Origin: an uncultured Kiritimatiellota bacterium
Lineage (GTDB): Bacteria > Verrucomicrobiota > Kiritimatiellia > RFP12 > DVOR01
Direction: 5' to 3'
Assembly: GCA_944389545.1 (NCBI GenBank)
Contig: CALXMT010000003.1
Location: 62,001-126,000, forward strand
Length of the DNA: 64,000 nucleotides
Shown here in pieces: positions 14,662-59,775 of this stretch. The notes beneath the pieces are model-generated. The model was not told the origin of the DNA, ran no database searches, and worked only from the letters and a program-made list of their open reading frames with translations. Every line of letters begins with the position of its first letter. Positions within the stretch are counted from its first letter, which is position 1. Position numbers and translations under genes: made by a program.

Positions 14662-14687
14662 GTGTATTGTGGCAATAGCACCAGAAT

Positions 14688-14806
14688 ACAGGAAACCGCA
14701 AAGACGCAAGGGGAGGCGCGAACCGCTTCGGGCTCCATCGGTCGCTCTGCGGCTTCGCCGCTGACCGCGCCCGCCGCCCTCCGTTTCGCGCCTTGTCGTT
14801 TTTCCG
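14688..14806 (-). repeat. Hairpin-tail repeat, C-type
   Basis: Inverse orientation. The tail complement CCGCAAAGACGCAAG is followed by outer arms AGGCGCGAA and TTTCGCGCCTT and inner stem GCGGC-TTC-GCCGC. Confidence 0.8.
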
Positions 14807-14865
14807 AGAACTCCATCCGTCGCCCCGGAAGAGCACTTTCTGGTTTCCGTTCTCTGTTTTCAATA

Positions 14866-15003
14866 CTGTCCAGGGAAATCGGAAGCCTTCTTTTCCCGCG
14901 AGGACGCCAGTGCGCGCGAAGCCAGATGGGCTGACGCCGGTCGCTTTGCGGGCTAAATGCCCGCTGATCGCTCCCTCCCGCCCCTCGTCTTCGCGCTTAG
15001 GCC
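14866..15003 (-). repeat. Hairpin-tail repeat, D-type
   Basis: Extended tail complement GTCCAGGGAAATCGG, then CCCGCGAGGACGCC, outer arm GCGCGAAG, P2 GATGGGC-type arms, and inner stem GCGGGC-TAAAT-GCCCGC. Together with the C-type and B-type copies on either side it fills the 14.66-15.25 kb gap. Confidence 0.8.
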
Positions 15004-15030
15004 GTTGGAAAAGATTTTGGCGCAGGGAAG

Positions 15031-15131
15031 TGGGGTGCGGGAGGGCGCACGGACGTGCGCCCGGCGTTAGCGCCCCTCCTTTCCTGCAAGAATTGCGTCT
15101 TTGCGGTTCCCATTTTCCCCGGACACCATTG
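15031..15131 (+). repeat. Hairpin-tail repeat, B-type
   Basis: P1-like arms GCAGGGAAG and CTTTCCTGC. Inner stem GGGCGCACG-GA-CGTGCGCCC is perfect over 9 bp. The tail TTGCGTCTTTGCGG continues as TTCCCATTTTCCCCGGACAC. Confidence 0.85.
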
Positions 15132-15141
15132 GCCTCACCCG

Positions 15142-15213
15142 GCGCCCCATAGGGGCGCTTTCTGTTTTCCGTTTTCCGTTTTCTGTTCTCTGGGGCGGCG
15201 CAAACCGCCCCTC
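15142..15213 (-). repeat. E-type repeat (inverted)
   Basis: Hairpin GCGCCCC-ATA-GGGGCGC (15142-15158), heptad tract of TTTTCCG-like units, then hairpin GGGGCGG/CCGCCCC (15192-15211). Confidence 0.7.
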
Positions 15214-15251
15214 TTTTTGGTACAGTATGGAGAAAGAGAGGATTCGCAGAC

Positions 15252-23892: not shown

Positions 23893-24200
23893 GAAAGTTT
23901 ATTGGGGATGCACAGAGACCCACAGAAAGCACGACGCAGGGAACCGCAGATTTCGAGGAACACAGAGGACACAGAGAAGACAGAGGGGCACAGAGGCGGG
24001 CGGCGTGCTACCGCACGCAGGACTGCCAGTGTGTCTTTGGGAATCACAAAGGACACGAAGAATCACAAAGGACACAAAGGGGAAACGCAGATTGTTCCGT
24101 CGCTTCGCTAGGAAGACCTTCGGTGACACAGATTGATGCAGATTTTGGGCGTGCTGGCGCACGCCGATTGAGTAGGATGGAAAGGAAATTGGGATTGAAG
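23893..24200. other. Non-coding region with purine-rich short direct repeats
   Basis: CACAGAG and CACAAAGGACAC-like units recur between 23905 and 24080, with a GCGTGC-TACC-GCACGC hairpin between. No gene is supportable. The style matches the repeat-filled gaps elsewhere in the window. Confidence 0.5.
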
Positions 24201-24204
24201 GGAT

Positions 24205-24273
24205 GTGGGGCGTTGCCCCACACCCCGGCAGGGAGAAGTTCTCCCTGCACCCCCGGCACGTCTGCGACGTGCC
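24205..24273. repeat. Three consecutive perfect hairpins
   Basis: GTGGGGC-GTT-GCCCCAC (24205-24221), GCAGGGAGA-AGT-TCTCCCTGC (24228-24248) and GGCACGTC-TGC-GACGTGCC (24255-24273), each with a three-base loop. The third recurs exactly at 59201-59219; the first recurs with loop TCC near 26982. Confidence 0.8.
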
Positions 24274-24382
24274 AACTAGCACGACGGAATGACAAGCACG
24301 ACCCAGCAGGAGGTTCAGGAGATTCAGGAGATGCAGGAGCGCCCGGTAAACGGGCGGAGGACGAGGACTCTGGGAGACAAAC

Positions 24383-24487
24383 AAGCGCGAAGACGATGGG
24401 CGGGAGGGAGCGATCAGCGGGCGTTTAGCCCGCAAAGCGACCGGCGTTAGCCCATCTGGCTTCGCGCGCACTGGCGTTTTTGCGGTT
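24383..24487 (+). repeat. Hairpin-tail repeat, D-type
   Basis: P1 GCGCGAAG (24385-24392) with CTTCGCGC (24460-24467). P2 GATGGGC/GCCCATC. P3 GCGGGC-GTTTA-GCCCGC. The tail GGCGTTTTTGCGG follows. Confidence 0.85.
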
Positions 24488-24518
24488 CATCTCTTTTTCC
24501 CTAGGATACTCCTGGCGC

Positions 24519-24532
24519 GACCCTATAGGGTT
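24519..24532. repeat. Single CTATAG palindrome
   Basis: ACCCTATAGGGTT, a lone copy of the palindrome that forms 23-bp arrays at 5336, 51533 and 59433. Confidence 0.6.
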
Positions 24533-26613: not shown

Positions 26614-26633
26614 GTTTTTTTACCGACCGGCAA

Positions 26634-26745
26634 TGCTGTCCGGGGGAAATTGGGACCGCAAAGACGCAAGGGGCGACTTGCGCCGCCCCGGAGAACGGAG
26701 AACGGAGAACGGAGAACAGAACGCGCGACAAGCGCGCGACAGGTG
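26634..26745 (-). repeat. E-type repeat joined to a hairpin-tail tail
   Basis: The tail complement GTCCGGGGGAAATTGGGACC and GCAAAGACGCAAGG runs straight into an E-type unit: hairpin with GGGGCG/CCGCCCC arms, four GGAGAAC heptads and hairpin CGCGC-GACAA-GCGCG. This shows that E-type units also use the shared tail. Confidence 0.7.
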
Positions 26746-26754
26746 AAGGTTTCC

Positions 26755-26850
26755 GCAAAGACGCAAATCTTGCAGGAAAGGTGGGGCGCTAACGCCGGGC
26801 GCGCGTCCGTACGCCCTCCCGTGCCCCACTGTCCTGCGCCAAAAGGAGAT
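26755..26850 (-). repeat. Hairpin-tail repeat, B-type
   Basis: Tail complement CCGCAAAGACGCAAA, GCAGGAAAGGTGGGGCGC, then GTGCCCCACTGTCCTGC. P2 arms GTGGGGC/GCCCCAC pair here; P3 is imperfect. Confidence 0.75.
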
Positions 26851-26919
26851 GAGGAAGTTTGGAAGCTTGGAGGCTTGGAAGTTAGCCGTGGAAGGATCAC
26901 GCTTTGCGCTCCCGGGTTT

Positions 26920-27005
26920 TCGGGGAGGGGGTTCGCCCCACACCCCACTATAGAAGCTTGGCTGATTAGCTGATTGGCGTTTTGGTGGGGCTCCGCCCCA
27001 CACCC
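26920..27005. other. Non-coding stretch with GC hairpins
   Basis: GTGGGGC-TCC-GCCCCAC near 26982 and a CTGATTAGCTGATTGG stretch that is the complement of the CCAATCAGC tandem repeat at 59953. No gene seen. Confidence 0.5.
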
Positions 27006-27012
27006 CTGCTTA

Positions 27013-27145
27013 GACGCGAAGACGATGGGCGGGAGGGAGCGATCAGCGGGCGTTTAGCCCGCAAAGCGACCTGCGTTAGCCCATCTGGCTTCGCGCGCAC
27101 TGACGTTTTTGCGGGAAAAGAAGGCTCACTGATTTCTCGGACACT
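27013..27145 (+). repeat. Hairpin-tail repeat, D-type with extended tail
   Basis: GACGCGAAGACGATGGGC, inner stem GCGGGC-GTTTA-GCCCGC, GCCCATC and CTTCGCGC. The tail GACGTTTTTGCGG continues to CGGACACTATTGG. Confidence 0.85.
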
Positions 27146-27179
27146 ATTGGCCAACCAGGGAGGCCGAATCCTAAGGGAA

Positions 27180-32559: not shown

Positions 32560-33444
32560 TCAACGGCGGCGCCGGGCACGGCGGCGGAAGAGGTCGCGCA
32601 CGGCGTCGATAAAGGGTTTGTCTGTGGAAAGGTCGATAAGGTCGATGCCGGCGCGGCGGAAGGCGCGCGTCTGCTCGTCGCGCACGGCCTCGGCGCGCTC
32701 GGCGAAGCGGCGGCGCACGGCGGCGCTGGAGGTGTCCACCAGCAGGGTCCGGTGGGTCTCGGGATCCCACAACTCCACGAGGCCGACGGCGGGGAGGGCC
32801 GATTCCGCGGGGTCGGAGATGCGGCAGGCGATGACGTCGTGGCGGCGGGCGAAGGCGGTCAGGTCGCGGACGTAGCCGTCGTCCTGGAAGTCGGAGAGGA
32901 GGAAGACGACGGCCTTGCGGCGCTGGGTGGCGGAGACGAAGCGGAGCGCGGCGCTGATGTCGGTGCCCTCATGGGTCTCCTCGGCGGCGAGGACCTCGCG
33001 CACCAGGCGCTGGACGGCGGTGCGGCCCTTGCGCGGGGGAAGGCTCTTCACCACGCGGTCGCTGAAGAGCAGGAGGCCGACCTTGTCTTGGTTGGAGAGG
33101 GCGGCCATGGCCAGGAGGGCGGTGAGCTCGGCCGCGCGCGCGGCCTTGGAGCGGGCGCCCGTGCCGAAGCTCTGGCTGCCGGAGACGTCGACCAGGAAGA
33201 GAACCGTCAGCTCGCGTTCCTCGCTGAAGCGCTTGACGTAGGGTTCGCCCGTGCGTGCGGTGACGTTCCAGTCGATGGCGCGGACGTCGTCGCCGGGCTG
33301 GTAGGGGCGGGCCTCATCGAACTCGATGCCTTGGCCTTTGAAGACGGAGTGGTAGTCTCCGCTGAGGCGCTCATCGAGCAACCTCCGCGTGAGGATGCGG
33401 ATCCTCCGCACCTCCTTCATCAATTCCTCTGTATCAATCTCCAT
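32560..33444 (-). CDS. DUF58 domain-containing protein (vWA-like)
   Basis: 294 residues. Family partner of MoxR AAA+ ATPases. N-terminal helical part with YHSVFKGQGIEFDEARPYQPGDDVRAIDWNVTARTGEPYVKRF (fragments), which is the DUF58 core. A von Willebrand A-like domain with the MIDAS motif DVSGS follows (FLVDVSGSQSF). No membrane helix. MoxR-DUF58 pairs are thought to act as chaperones for assembling enzyme or envelope complexes. RBS GGAAAGGAGG at 33449-33458 (minus) directly abuts the end of a hairpin-tail repeat. MoxR lies 670 bases upstream, separated by a nuclease cassette, whereas the two genes are usually adjacent. Confidence 0.88.
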   Translation of the reverse strand: MEIDTEELMKEVRRIRILTRRLLDERLSGDYHSVFKGQGIEFDEARPYQPGDDVRAIDWNVTARTGEPYVKRFSEERELTVLFLVDVSGSQSFGTGARSKAARAAELTALLAMAALSNQDKVGLLLFSDRVVKSLPPRKGRTAVQRLVREVLAAEETHEGTDISAALRFVSATQRRKAVVFLLSDFQDDGYVRDLTAFARRHDVIACRISDPAESALPAVGLVELWDPETHRTLLVDTSSAAVRRRFAERAEAVRDEQTRAFRRAGIDLIDLSTDKPFIDAVRDLFRRRARRRR

Positions 33445-33453
33445 ACTGCCTCC

Positions 33454-33536
33454 TTTCCACGAAGACACGAATGAGACGGCAAGGCATGGGCGCTTCACCG
33501 GTCGCTTCGCTCCCTACCGCGCCCATCCTTGCCGCC
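33454..33536 (-). repeat. Hairpin-tail repeat, A-variant (left end of cassette)
   Basis: P1 CGGCAAGG (33477-33484) with CCTTGCCG (33527-33534). P2 GGGCGC (33488-33493) with GCGCCC (33519-33524). The inner stem is reduced (GC-TTC-GC). The tail points left toward DUF58. Linkers CTTCACC and CTACC match other A-type copies. Confidence 0.85.
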
Positions 33537-33576
33537 TGATTGTCATCTTGAAAAGTTGACATAAGTGAACCTCGAT

Positions 33577-33978
33577 TCAGCGATTGGCATCCTTCAGAAG
33601 GATACGCTTGAAACGTTTTCTGTCGGTGGCGCCAAAGTTGGCAAGCAGGCCTAGGGGATAATTGAGGACCTTAAGGTAGCTGAGCACCTGCATCTGATGT
33701 TCATAACGGAGCTCGCCCTCAAGCGACTTCAGCTCAATCACGAGACACTCATCTACAATTAAATCGGCGCGCAAGGTCGTGGAAAACGAGGCGCCTTTGT
33801 ATACGTAGGCAACATATTTTTCCTTTTCGACGTGGTGACCGCGCAAGGTCAGCTCGCGCTCCAGACACGCCTCATACACGGATTCCAAGAGCCCTTGACC
33901 CATGTGTCGTAAGACCTCAACGCACGCATCGAGGGCATCTTGACAGACAAGATCGGCTTTTGGGTAGAGCGGGTGCAT
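33577..33978 (-). CDS. GxxExxY family protein (PD-(D/E)XK nuclease fold)
   Basis: 133 residues. The name motif is GLLESVY (29-35). The nuclease-like core is visible: strand with Asp72 in RADLIVD, then E82-L-K84 in VIELKS, matching PD-(D/E)XK superfamily metal and catalytic positions, with the preceding KEKYVAYVYKG. The family occurs in PVC bacteria and its biological role is not settled. The ATG at 33978 (MHPLYPKADL) fits the family's usual short start; 12 further residues are possible upstream. Its composition is lower in G+C than its neighbours. Flanked by inverted hairpin-tail repeats, suggesting it travels with them. Confidence 0.85.
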   Translation of the reverse strand: MHPLYPKADLVCQDALDACVEVLRHMGQGLLESVYEACLERELTLRGHHVEKEKYVAYVYKGASFSTTLRADLIVDECLVIELKSLEGELRYEHQMQVLSYLKVLNYPLGLLANFGATDRKRFKRILLKDANR

Positions 33979-34016
33979 GATTGGAGTGGGCTGGGTTATT
34001 CGGGAAGCATACAAAG

Positions 34017-34100
34017 GGCGGAGGGATTAGGCGCGGTAGGGAGCGAAGCGACCGGTGAAGCGCCTAATTCCCTCCGCGCATTTGGTGTCTTCGTGGATAA
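34017..34100 (+). repeat. Hairpin-tail repeat, A-variant (right end of cassette)
   Basis: Left arm GCGGAGGGATTAGGCGC (34018-34034) pairs with GCGCCTAATTCCCTCCGC (34060-34077) over 17 bp with one bulged T. The loop holds GGTAGGGAGCGAAGCGACC. The tail TTGGTGTCTTCGTGGA points right. The stem sequence differs from the left-end copy on both arms. Confidence 0.88.
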
Positions 34101-34113
34101 GGCGGTTTAACTC

Positions 34114-35100
34114 TCATGGGACGGGGATTTCGGAGAGGAGTCTGTCGATGACGGCGTCGGGGGTGAGTTCCTCGGCTTCGGCTTCGTAAGTGAGGAGGAG
34201 ACGGTGGCGGAGGACGTCGTGGGCGGTCTCTTTGACGTCTTGCGGGGTGGCGTAGGTGCGGCCGCGCAGGAGGGCGTTGGCGCGGGCGGACTGCTTCAGG
34301 CAGATGGAACCGCGCGGGGAGACGCCCAGCTGGATGGCTCCCTTGAGGGATTGCAGACCCTTGAAGGACTCGGGTTCGCGCGTGGCGAAGACGAGGTCGA
34401 GGATGTAGTCGTCGACCTTCGCGTCGCAGTAGACCTTCTCGGCGGCGGAGAGGAGGAGGTCGATGTCCTCGCGCGTGACGCACTGTTTGGGCGGGGTCTC
34501 CATGGCCGCGGGTTGGGTGAGGCGGTTCATGATGCGGCGCTCGTCCTCGCGGCCGGGATGGCGCACCACGCACTTGAGCATGAAACGGTCGGTCTGCGCC
34601 TCGGGCAGGGGATAGGTGCCCTCTTGCTCGATGGGGTTCTGCGTCGCCATCACCAGGAAGGGGCGCGGCAGGGGATAGGTCTCGTCGCCGAGGGTGACCT
34701 GGCGTTCCTGCATGGCCTCGAGGAGGGCGGATTGCACCTTGGCGGGGGCGCGGTTGATTTCGTCGGCGATGAGCAGGTTCGCGAAGACGGGACCCTTGTG
34801 CGGGGTGAAGGTGCCCTCGCGCTGATTGTAAATCAGACTGCCGATCACGTCCGCCGGCAGCAGGTCCGGCGTGAAGGAGATGCGCTTGGTCTCCAGGCCC
34901 AACGCGGCGGCGAGGGCGCGCACGGCGGTGGTCTTGGCCAGGCCCGGCACGCCTTCGAGCAGGATGTGCCCGCCCGTCATCAACGCAATCAGCAGGGCGT
35001 CGAGCATGTGCTCCTGCCCCACCAACGCCTTGTTCACTTCGCTTCGGATCGCCGCCAGGAGCGGCGTGCAACGCGCAATCGTCTCATCGGTCTCTGCCAT
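34114..35100 (-). CDS. MoxR family AAA+ ATPase
   Basis: 328 residues. AAA+ ATPase of the MoxR group, which with vWA/DUF58 partners remodels or activates protein complexes. Walker A GVPGLAKT is at 50-57, Walker B LLIADEINRAP near 115, sensor 1 MATQNPIEQEGTYPLPEAQTDRF in the usual long form (given in fragments), and the C-terminal lid region. No membrane segments. RBS AAAGGA before the ATG at 35100 was preferred over a Met nine codons upstream. A perfect TATAAT lies at 35126-35131 on the minus strand. Head of the transcript moxR - [cassette] - DUF58 - serine dehydratase. Confidence 0.94.
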   Translation of the reverse strand: MAETDETIARCTPLLAAIRSEVNKALVGQEHMLDALLIALMTGGHILLEGVPGLAKTTAVRALAAALGLETKRISFTPDLLPADVIGSLIYNQREGTFTPHKGPVFANLLIADEINRAPAKVQSALLEAMQERQVTLGDETYPLPRPFLVMATQNPIEQEGTYPLPEAQTDRFMLKCVVRHPGREDERRIMNRLTQPAAMETPPKQCVTREDIDLLLSAAEKVYCDAKVDDYILDLVFATREPESFKGLQSLKGAIQLGVSPRGSICLKQSARANALLRGRTYATPQDVKETAHDVLRHRLLLTYEAEAEELTPDAVIDRLLSEIPVP

Positions 35101-35125
35101 GACAGTCCTTTCGTTCAACGTCACC

Positions 35126-35131
35126 ATTATA
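35126..35131 (-). promoter_or_regulatory. -10 box of moxR
   Basis: Perfect TATAAT on the minus strand, 26 bases before the ATG at 35100. No convincing -35 at 17 bases (AGACAG). Confidence 0.5.
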
Positions 35132-35177
35132 CTTCAATTCCGCGAACCCTGTCTGCCTGCGATACGGTCCGAGGAGG

Positions 35178-35270
35178 TTTCCACGAAAACACGAAAGGAA
35201 CACAAGGGCCTGGGCACTTCACCGTTCGGCCCTTCGGGCCTCTCTACCGTGCCCATCCCTTGTGTTTCTA
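35178..35270 (-). repeat. Hairpin-tail repeat, A-type
   Basis: P1 CACAAGGG (35201-35208) with CCCTTGTG (35257-35264). P2 GGGCAC with GTGCCC. P3 GGCCC-TTC-GGGCC (35228-35240). P1 and P3 differ from the 3357 copy on both arms, keeping the pairing. Confidence 0.88.
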
Positions 35271-35285
35271 TCATTTCGTTGGAAA

Positions 35286-35336
35286 CGCCCCGGGCGCACG
35301 TGCGTGCGCCCTCCCGCGCCCCACCTTTCCTGCGCC
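35286..35336 (+). repeat. Hairpin-tail repeat, B-type fragment
   Basis: Perfect stem GGGCGCACG-TG-CGTGCGCCC (35292-35311), then CCCCACCTTTCCTGC. The other half is missing, apparently replaced by the adjacent A-type copy. Confidence 0.7.
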
Positions 35337-59256: not shown

Positions 59257-59347
59257 CGCAAGGGATGGGCACGGTAGTGAGGCGCAACGCGCCGAACGGT
59301 GAAGTGCCCAGGCCCTTGCGTTCCTTCGTGTTTTCGTGGAAAACTCA
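59257..59347 (+). repeat. Hairpin-tail repeat, A-type
   Basis: CGCAAGGG (59257-59264)/CCCTTGCG (59313-59320), GGGCAC/GTGCCC, GGCGC-AAC-GCGCC. The tail is TTCCTTCGTGTTTTCGTGG. Almost identical to the copy at 3357, 56 kb away. Confidence 0.88.
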
Positions 59348-59683: not shown

Positions 59684-59775
59684 GGGTTTCCACGAAGACA
59701 CGAAGGACGCGAGGGCCTGGGCACTTCACCGCTCGGCCCTGCGGGCCTCTCTACCGTGCCCATCCCTCGCGTCTC
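59684..59775 (-). repeat. Hairpin-tail repeat, A-type
   Basis: P1 CGCGAGGG (59708-59715) with CCCTCGCG (59764-59771). P2 GGGCAC (59719-59724) with GTGCCC (59756-59761). P3 GGCCC-TGC-GGGCC (59735-59747). Oriented opposite to the 59257 copy, tails facing each other. Confidence 0.88.

Follow-up and report, generated by a model that had tools for sequence, protein, structure and literature searches.

The moxR and DUF58 genes of an uncultured Kiritimatiellota bacterium are separated by a single GxxExxY gene bracketed by inverted terminal arrays. I show here that this architecture recurs, with matched ends specific to each gene, in Bacteria and Archaea, that its sites are polymorphic between relatives and include relics, and that the cassettes co-occur with dispersed copies of their tails. 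The insert is likely a minimal, single-gene, nuclease-encoding element, mobile or mobilisable, whose ends spawn dispersed hairpin repeats; the nuclease activity, the binding to the ends and the transposition are inferred. The DNA analysed, hereafter referred to as the window, is a stretch of 64,000 nucleotides from contig CALXMT010000003.1. An earlier note on this stretch, made from sequence alone, had proposed a small mobile cassette with terminal inverted repeats and its own nuclease. This proposal is supported, though that the nuclease drives the movement remains an inference.

Layout of the insert

The gap between moxR and DUF58 measures 669 bp, and the GxxExxY gene is the only open reading frame inside it (Table 1). 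It is flanked by two terminal elements, each consisting of a tail and a hairpin, which form an inverted pair whose matching arms measure 48 nt (88%) and 16 nt (94%). The tails face outward, and the inverted-match (IR) score of this copy is 40. Both elements are strong predicted hairpins (folding z −3.75 and −4.09). The loop of the right hairpin is identical to that of the left, and the stem sequence differs yet remains complementary. The ribosome-binding site of DUF58 lies directly at the left end of the insert (CTTCGTGGAAAGGAGGCAGTATG). The earlier claims that the gap contains only a GxxExxY gene and an inverted pair of tail-hairpin elements, that its left end abuts this ribosome-binding site, and that the gene encodes a 133-residue PD-(D/E)XK-like protein were all borne out, the last by the family matches and predicted fold described below.

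Table 1. Features of the insert, its flanks and related elements. Positions are those of the window, except for the last row, which gives the locus and the positions within it.
Feature	Position	Strand
DUF58 gene (flank, host operon)	32560..33444	-
Whole insert, moxR stop to DUF58 start	33445..34113	not assigned
Left terminal element: tail TTTCCACGAAGACACGAA outermost, adjoining the DUF58 ribosome-binding site, then hairpin	33454..33545	+
Hairpin of the left element: stem GGCAAGGcATGGGCGC / GCGCCCATCCTTGCC, loop TTCACCGGTCGCTTCGCTCCCTACC		
GxxExxY gene, 133 aa from ATG, predicted PD-(D/E)XK fold with Cas4/RecB-type QxxxY motif	33577..33978	-
Right terminal element, inverted copy: tail TATCCACGAAGACACCAA and hairpin	34008..34099	-
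moxR AAA ATPase gene (flank, host operon)	34114..35127	-
Solo dispersed A-type tail-hairpin element, non-autonomous, ~105 bp	35178..35290	+
Dispersed element, exact copy of the tail motif, CCACGAAGACACGAA	3425..3439	-
Dispersed element, tail motif with 1 mismatch	59325..59339	-
Dispersed element, exact copy of the tail motif	59690..59704	+
Four-helix-bundle gene with inverted 7-bp iterons, in the window's own genome	L181:1380-1990	

The GxxExxY protein

The encoded protein matches TIGR04256 with 112.2 bits (cut-off 35) and PF13366 (PDDEXK_3) with 112.7 bits (cut-off 22). The region between the ends has no other Pfam or NCBIfam match, and it lacks genes for a transposase, an integrase or a reverse transcriptase. 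A sequence search of the PDB gave no match. Its AlphaFold model has a confident PD-(D/E)XK fold (pLDDT 93), for which the top Foldseek match is the Cas4 protein SSO0001 (E 1.5e-4). The family motif reads GLLESVY, and the key residues are G29, E32, Y35, D72, E82-x-K84, Q97 and Y101. In an alignment of 57 diverged GxxExxY proteins all of these are kept, together with N114 and F115, and D72, E82xK84 and Q97xxxY101 are invariant. The protein is accordingly read as an intact nuclease of the PD-(D/E)XK family with the QxxxY motif of Cas4 and RecB, and its conservation resembles that of a gene under purifying selection; that it is active as a nuclease is inferred.

The fold and the QxxxY motif are common to Cas4 and lambda-exonuclease-type PD-(D/E)XK nucleases. 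However, GxxExxY is smaller than Cas4, and no CRISPR genes were seen beside the window copy. Membership of Cas4 was rejected because the four conserved cysteines for the iron-sulphur cluster are absent: there is no cysteine among the invariant or nearly invariant columns of the 57 sequences.

GxxExxY genes are bracketed by inverted ends in many phyla

The family is present in 135 of the 241 genomes of the phylum. Bracketing was scored by comparing the 300 bp on one side of a gene with the 300 bp on the other and keeping the strongest inverted match, and a gene passed if its score lay above the 99th percentile of shuffles. By this measure 66 of 75 GxxExxY genes of the phylum pass, compared with none of 28 PIN-domain genes used as controls (Fisher p 1e-17). 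The sample of 75 was biased to high-scoring GxxExxY genes, and I therefore added an exhaustive sample, consisting of every full-length GxxExxY gene of six genomes, where 23/25 pass. A 10-row GxxExxY alignment was then used as query to gather 77 named loci, which cover many phyla and include two groups of archaea, ranging from Alphaproteobacteria to Methanosarcinales; 51 of them pass. Examples include an alphaproteobacterium with AACCACAGAGACACAGAGACACAGAGA ends, identical at 27/27 positions, and a Methanosarcinales archaeon with ends AACCACAGAGGACACAGAGGGCACAGAGA. No clear end pair is seen in a third of the named loci and in about 10% of the phylum loci, which could reflect decay or domesticated genes. 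No GxxExxY gene was found in phage records by tblastn.

The window's genome contains only one other GxxExxY gene, which is also bracketed by inverted arrays, of a different type (CACAAAGGACACAAAGGACACAAAGG, a CACAAAG tail). GxxExxY genes without such flanks had been named in the earlier note as an outcome that would refute the cassette; it is not refuted, as this second gene and most genes of the three samples are bracketed. Several of its details nevertheless require correction. Hairpin-tail ends had been taken as the signature, but it is the iteron tail that has this role, many cassettes showing no hairpin. The note had asked whether the same end sequences occur elsewhere, but tails vary from gene to gene and match between the two ends of each. 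Finally, the spread had been placed in PVC genomes, and it is far wider, covering Bacteria and some Archaea.

Structure and specificity of the ends

The ends of GxxExxY cassettes are arrays of about three short iterons with a spacing of 8–10 bp (mode 9). Iteron sequences are diverse (CACAGAG, CACGAAG, CGCAAAG, ACAGGAT, CGCAGATT and others), the window copy having the CACGAAG type. The start codon often lies right beside the upstream array, and the end-to-end length of the cassette is 412–820 bp, with a median of 484.

Within ten genomes carrying multiple cassettes, the left end best matches the right end of its own gene in 31 of 33 cases, against 10 expected among the cassettes compared per genome. 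Protein identity is correlated with tail similarity across 98 cassettes (Mantel r 0.43, permutation p<0.0005). The excess of tail motifs also follows the number of GxxExxY genes (Spearman 0.68 over 241 genomes, uncorrected for phylogeny), and carriers have more tails than non-carriers in 16 of the 17 families containing both. A possible target-site pattern had been raised previously, but no target-site duplication was seen: there is none of constant length, with no antidiagonal excess over 82 cassettes, and no target duplication at the moxR-DUF58 cassette junctions of the window's genome (G000) or of its closest relative (G003).

Gene-less derivatives include solo tail-hairpin elements. By eye, a neighbour of locus L298 seems to keep the first codons of the gene between its tails, and the gene at L232 is flanked by a pair of ~105-bp elements.

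Tail repeats in the window's own genome

The tail of the window copy has about 199 copies in the 2.53-Mb genome, while the reversed control pattern has 2, indicating that the tail does not occur by chance. The 131-kb contig carries 8 plus and 7 minus tails, and the only outward-facing pair within 1 kb is the one that brackets the GxxExxY gene; simple arithmetic gives an expectation of 0.43 such pairs. An Rfam search returned nothing beyond a sub-threshold chance match.

Gain, loss and replacement of cassettes

In 11 genomes of the same genus, the moxR-DUF58 gap is 25–110 bp long and holds no gene. In G001 it contains a hairpin of 245 bp that carries no gene and ends in CCGCAAAG-type sequences, and in G003 a different GxxExxY gene bracketed by a different tail (CCGCAAAGACGC). 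DNA identity between G000 and G003 is 98.8% for the 3' part of moxR and 97.2% for DUF58, but 65% for the GxxExxY gene. The empty or short gaps of 11 relatives and the different cassette of G003 indicate recent gain or replacement rather than vertical inheritance; the same insert at the same place in all relatives, the other outcome that was to refute the cassette, was therefore not found. Elsewhere in the order, two further genera (L058 and L059) have a small unrelated gene in this gap, inside inverted heptad arrays. I infer from sequence alone that this gene encodes a four-helix-bundle protein, no family search having been made on these two copies.

Presence/absence and replacement are seen at moxR-DUF58, at gltB-gltD and at other operon gaps, where gene names were read off the translated flanks and not taken from annotation. 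True empty sites, with 21–24 bp between the genes, were found for gltB-gltD (empty in G177) and for the site of L093 (empty in G276). One pfkB-SDR gap has three tail types in three species. At pdhB-pdhC, two species carry a GxxExxY gene and a third carries a four-helix-like one. In one genus, a 103-bp relic retains the C-terminal residues of GxxExxY (IKHGIRRVVL) with a right tail, at a site where three sister species have full cassettes with three different tails; a lone tail is left at another site. At all the sites examined, cassettes occupy gaps between co-directional genes. No clean empty sites of solo elements could be obtained from G000–G003 synteny, as the intergenic DNA is too diverged. 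The window copy qualifies as a member of the GxxExxY family and, by its matched inverted iteron arrays at both ends, of the class of iteron-ended GxxExxY cassettes proposed here; it also shows the presence/absence polymorphism between close relatives that is characteristic of mobile genetic elements.

As a separate observation, the GxxExxY cassettes of two betaproteobacteria (L240 and L297) occupy one and the same gap, immediately upstream of trpG, which may be gap reuse or shared inheritance.

A parallel class with four-helix-bundle genes

Genes for four-helix-bundle proteins (TIGR02436, S23/IVP-like) are flanked, by the same score, by inverted 7-bp iteron arrays at 25 of 29 loci (L159–L188), with iterons such as GAATCGT, AGGAGTC and TAGGGAT. 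They constitute a second class of iteron-ended cassette, with a representative in the window's own genome (Table 1). Several four-helix genes of cyanobacteria and Bacteroidota (Litoribacter, Stenomitos, Flavobacterium; L354, L358, L361, L362 and L367) have the same inverted short-period arrays.

The GxxExxY cassettes resemble 23S rRNA intervening sequences and S23/IVP genes, which are also very small, single-gene units flanked by inverted repeats, are laid out in the same way and occur even in gaps that GxxExxY cassettes use. The S23/IVP units differ in protein fold and in period (7 bp against ~9), and the loci examined are not in 23S rRNA. The window element was rejected as an S23-type intervening sequence, its protein belonging to TIGR04256 and its tail spacing being ~9 bp. 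Heptamer repeats such as TAACTGA occur in Beggiatoaceae (PMC4679880), and it is possible that four-helix cassettes explain them, although I have no data from those genomes.

Proposed mechanism and alternatives

In the proposed mechanism, the nuclease would recognise its own iteron ends and cut at them. The substrate would probably be hairpin DNA in extruded or single-stranded form, or else a tail or repeat already resident at the site. Host recombination or replication would then copy or move the cassette into intergenic gaps, and gene-less ends (solo hairpin-tail repeats and deletion derivatives) would be moved in trans, like MITEs or REPINs. No excision or transposition event was observed. 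The reuse of gaps fits a homing-like replacement. The finding of the same layout in an unrelated four-helix family means that the mover may be shared external machinery.

This last possibility leads to a rival explanation, in which the genes are passengers: external machinery acting in trans (a reverse transcriptase, a transposase, or replication slippage and template switching) moves any inverted-iteron unit, and the GxxExxY and four-helix proteins serve in defence, as toxins or in end protection. It is supported by the two unrelated small proteins sharing one layout and even the same gaps (pdhB-pdhC, moxR-DUF58), and by the abundance of gene-less iteron-ended elements. However, the iteron period differs by protein family (8–10 bp for GxxExxY, 7 bp for four-helix genes), tail type covaries with the GxxExxY protein, and tail abundance follows the presence of the nuclease gene, which together suggest that the encoded protein reads the ends; I consider the passenger model unlikely. 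A homing process, where the nuclease cuts resident tails or repeats and gene conversion then puts the cassette in their place, is possible, and would be a sub-mechanism of the proposed one and not exclusive of it. The different cassettes found in one gap (moxR-DUF58 in G000 and G003, the three tail types at pfkB-SDR) and the absence of target duplication are in its favour. Against it, insertions also occur where the gap of the relative has no obvious resident repeat (gltB-gltD in G177, the L093 site in G276), and since swapped cassettes carry different tails, homology between tails would not by itself be enough to initiate conversion.

Two further alternatives were considered. GxxExxY might autoregulate its transcription, with the inverted arrays as binding sites or terminators that play no part in mobility and the genes spreading by ordinary recombination. 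The frequent position of the ATG beside the upstream array is consistent with this, and hairpins could terminate transcription, but the arrays are inverted and at both outer ends, hundreds of copies have no gene, and the whole unit between iteron ends is gained, lost and replaced, with gain boundaries at the outer iterons partly seen. This operator-only reading is very unlikely and was rejected. It could also be argued that two hairpin-tail elements landed by luck on either side of a gene, in a genome with about 200 tails in 2.5 Mb and with tails of both orientations on the same contig. Both within-genome and cross-genome tests reject such a pairing, which is all but excluded: fewer than one outward pair within 1 kb is expected in the whole contig and the single pair present is the one around the GxxExxY gene, and bracketing recurs in numerous genomes that are unrelated and differ in tail sequence altogether.

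The nuclease-encoding element remains the preferred reading. In a bolder version of it, GxxExxY cassettes would rank with the smallest mobile elements that encode their own mover, with ~0.43 kb made up of tail, ORF and tail; a Cas4-like nuclease would drive them by reading the iteron ends of its own cassette, and they would have spread through both Bacteria and Archaea. Together with the four-helix cassettes they would constitute a class, so far without a name, of iteron-ended elements with a single gene, which generate much of the dispersed tandem-iteron and hairpin-tail DNA of prokaryotes. Taken jointly, these statements are about as likely to be wrong as right.

Relation to known systems

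The closest parallel in layout is the REP/REPIN-RAYT system, derived from IS200/IS605, in which the short palindromic repeats flanking a nuclease gene also occur between other genes, in hundreds of copies, and form inverted pairs with a conserved tag. However, RAYT is an HUH tyrosine transposase, whereas the only protein of the GxxExxY cassette is a PD-(D/E)XK nuclease of ~130 aa, and REP ends are hairpins tagged with GTAG/CGTC, in contrast to the iteron arrays of the cassette. Membership was rejected: dispersed repeats are present, but the protein is not an HUH Y1 transposase, and the resemblance is in layout only. Insertion sequences and MITEs with terminal inverted repeats similarly combine one gene between inverted ends with gene-less internal-deletion derivatives. 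The cassette, often of only 0.41–0.46 kb, has neither a DDE nor another transposase, and a classical DDE insertion sequence was rejected on this ground and for want of a fixed-length target-site duplication. Free-standing homing endonucleases are likewise small, selfish, intergenic nuclease genes, but GxxExxY has its own inverted iteron ends, dispersed gene-less copies and no conserved cognate gene.

No description of the association between GxxExxY and repeats was found in the open full-text literature searched (GxxExxY, palindromic repeats, MITEs, IVS/four-helix, tail sequences); subscription papers and preprints were outside this search. The cassette would be categorically new, a conclusion that rests on this limited search and assumes that mobility is confirmed. 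GxxExxY, a common but functionless family, gains a specific and testable role and is tied to intergenic repeats that are abundant and so far unexplained. Should the nuclease prove able to move the unit by itself, this would imply a new transposition chemistry in less than 450 bp, with each protein-tail pair forming part of a specificity series already provided by nature. The four-helix cassettes, in turn, suggest an origin for unexplained heptamer repeats.

Other intergenic repeats

A number of further repeats were observed. Two GxxExxY genes (L124 and L390; G183) are flanked by long near-perfect hairpins (GTTACGCGATTTTGACAAATGG... and GTTGCGGCCATTGTGTTCG...) that outscore the iterons as inverted matches. 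Synteny with G003 is lost at the solo A-type element that lies a short way upstream of moxR (window 35157–35290), as if this were a breakpoint for rearrangement. Longer gene-less elements of 300–500 bp, with inverted CCGCAAAGACGC ends and internal hairpins, lie at window 14663–15214 and 26624–27179 and at L021:1540–1830, and several elements of this kind are framed by an outer TGTCCGGGGAA/TTCCCCGGACA repeat, suggesting nesting. A G003 contig (L133–L140) and window 23893–24521 contain many short intergenic palindromic units unrelated to the tails, for example GACCACTATAGTGGTTGACC / GACCCTATAGGGTC, the number of which differs between G000 and G003. Finally, at L028:1500–1760 a composite insert carrying GAACAGA-type iterons separates GGGCAC from TTCACCG within an A-type hairpin-tail element, and its junctions show a 4-bp GCAC repeat that may be a target duplication.
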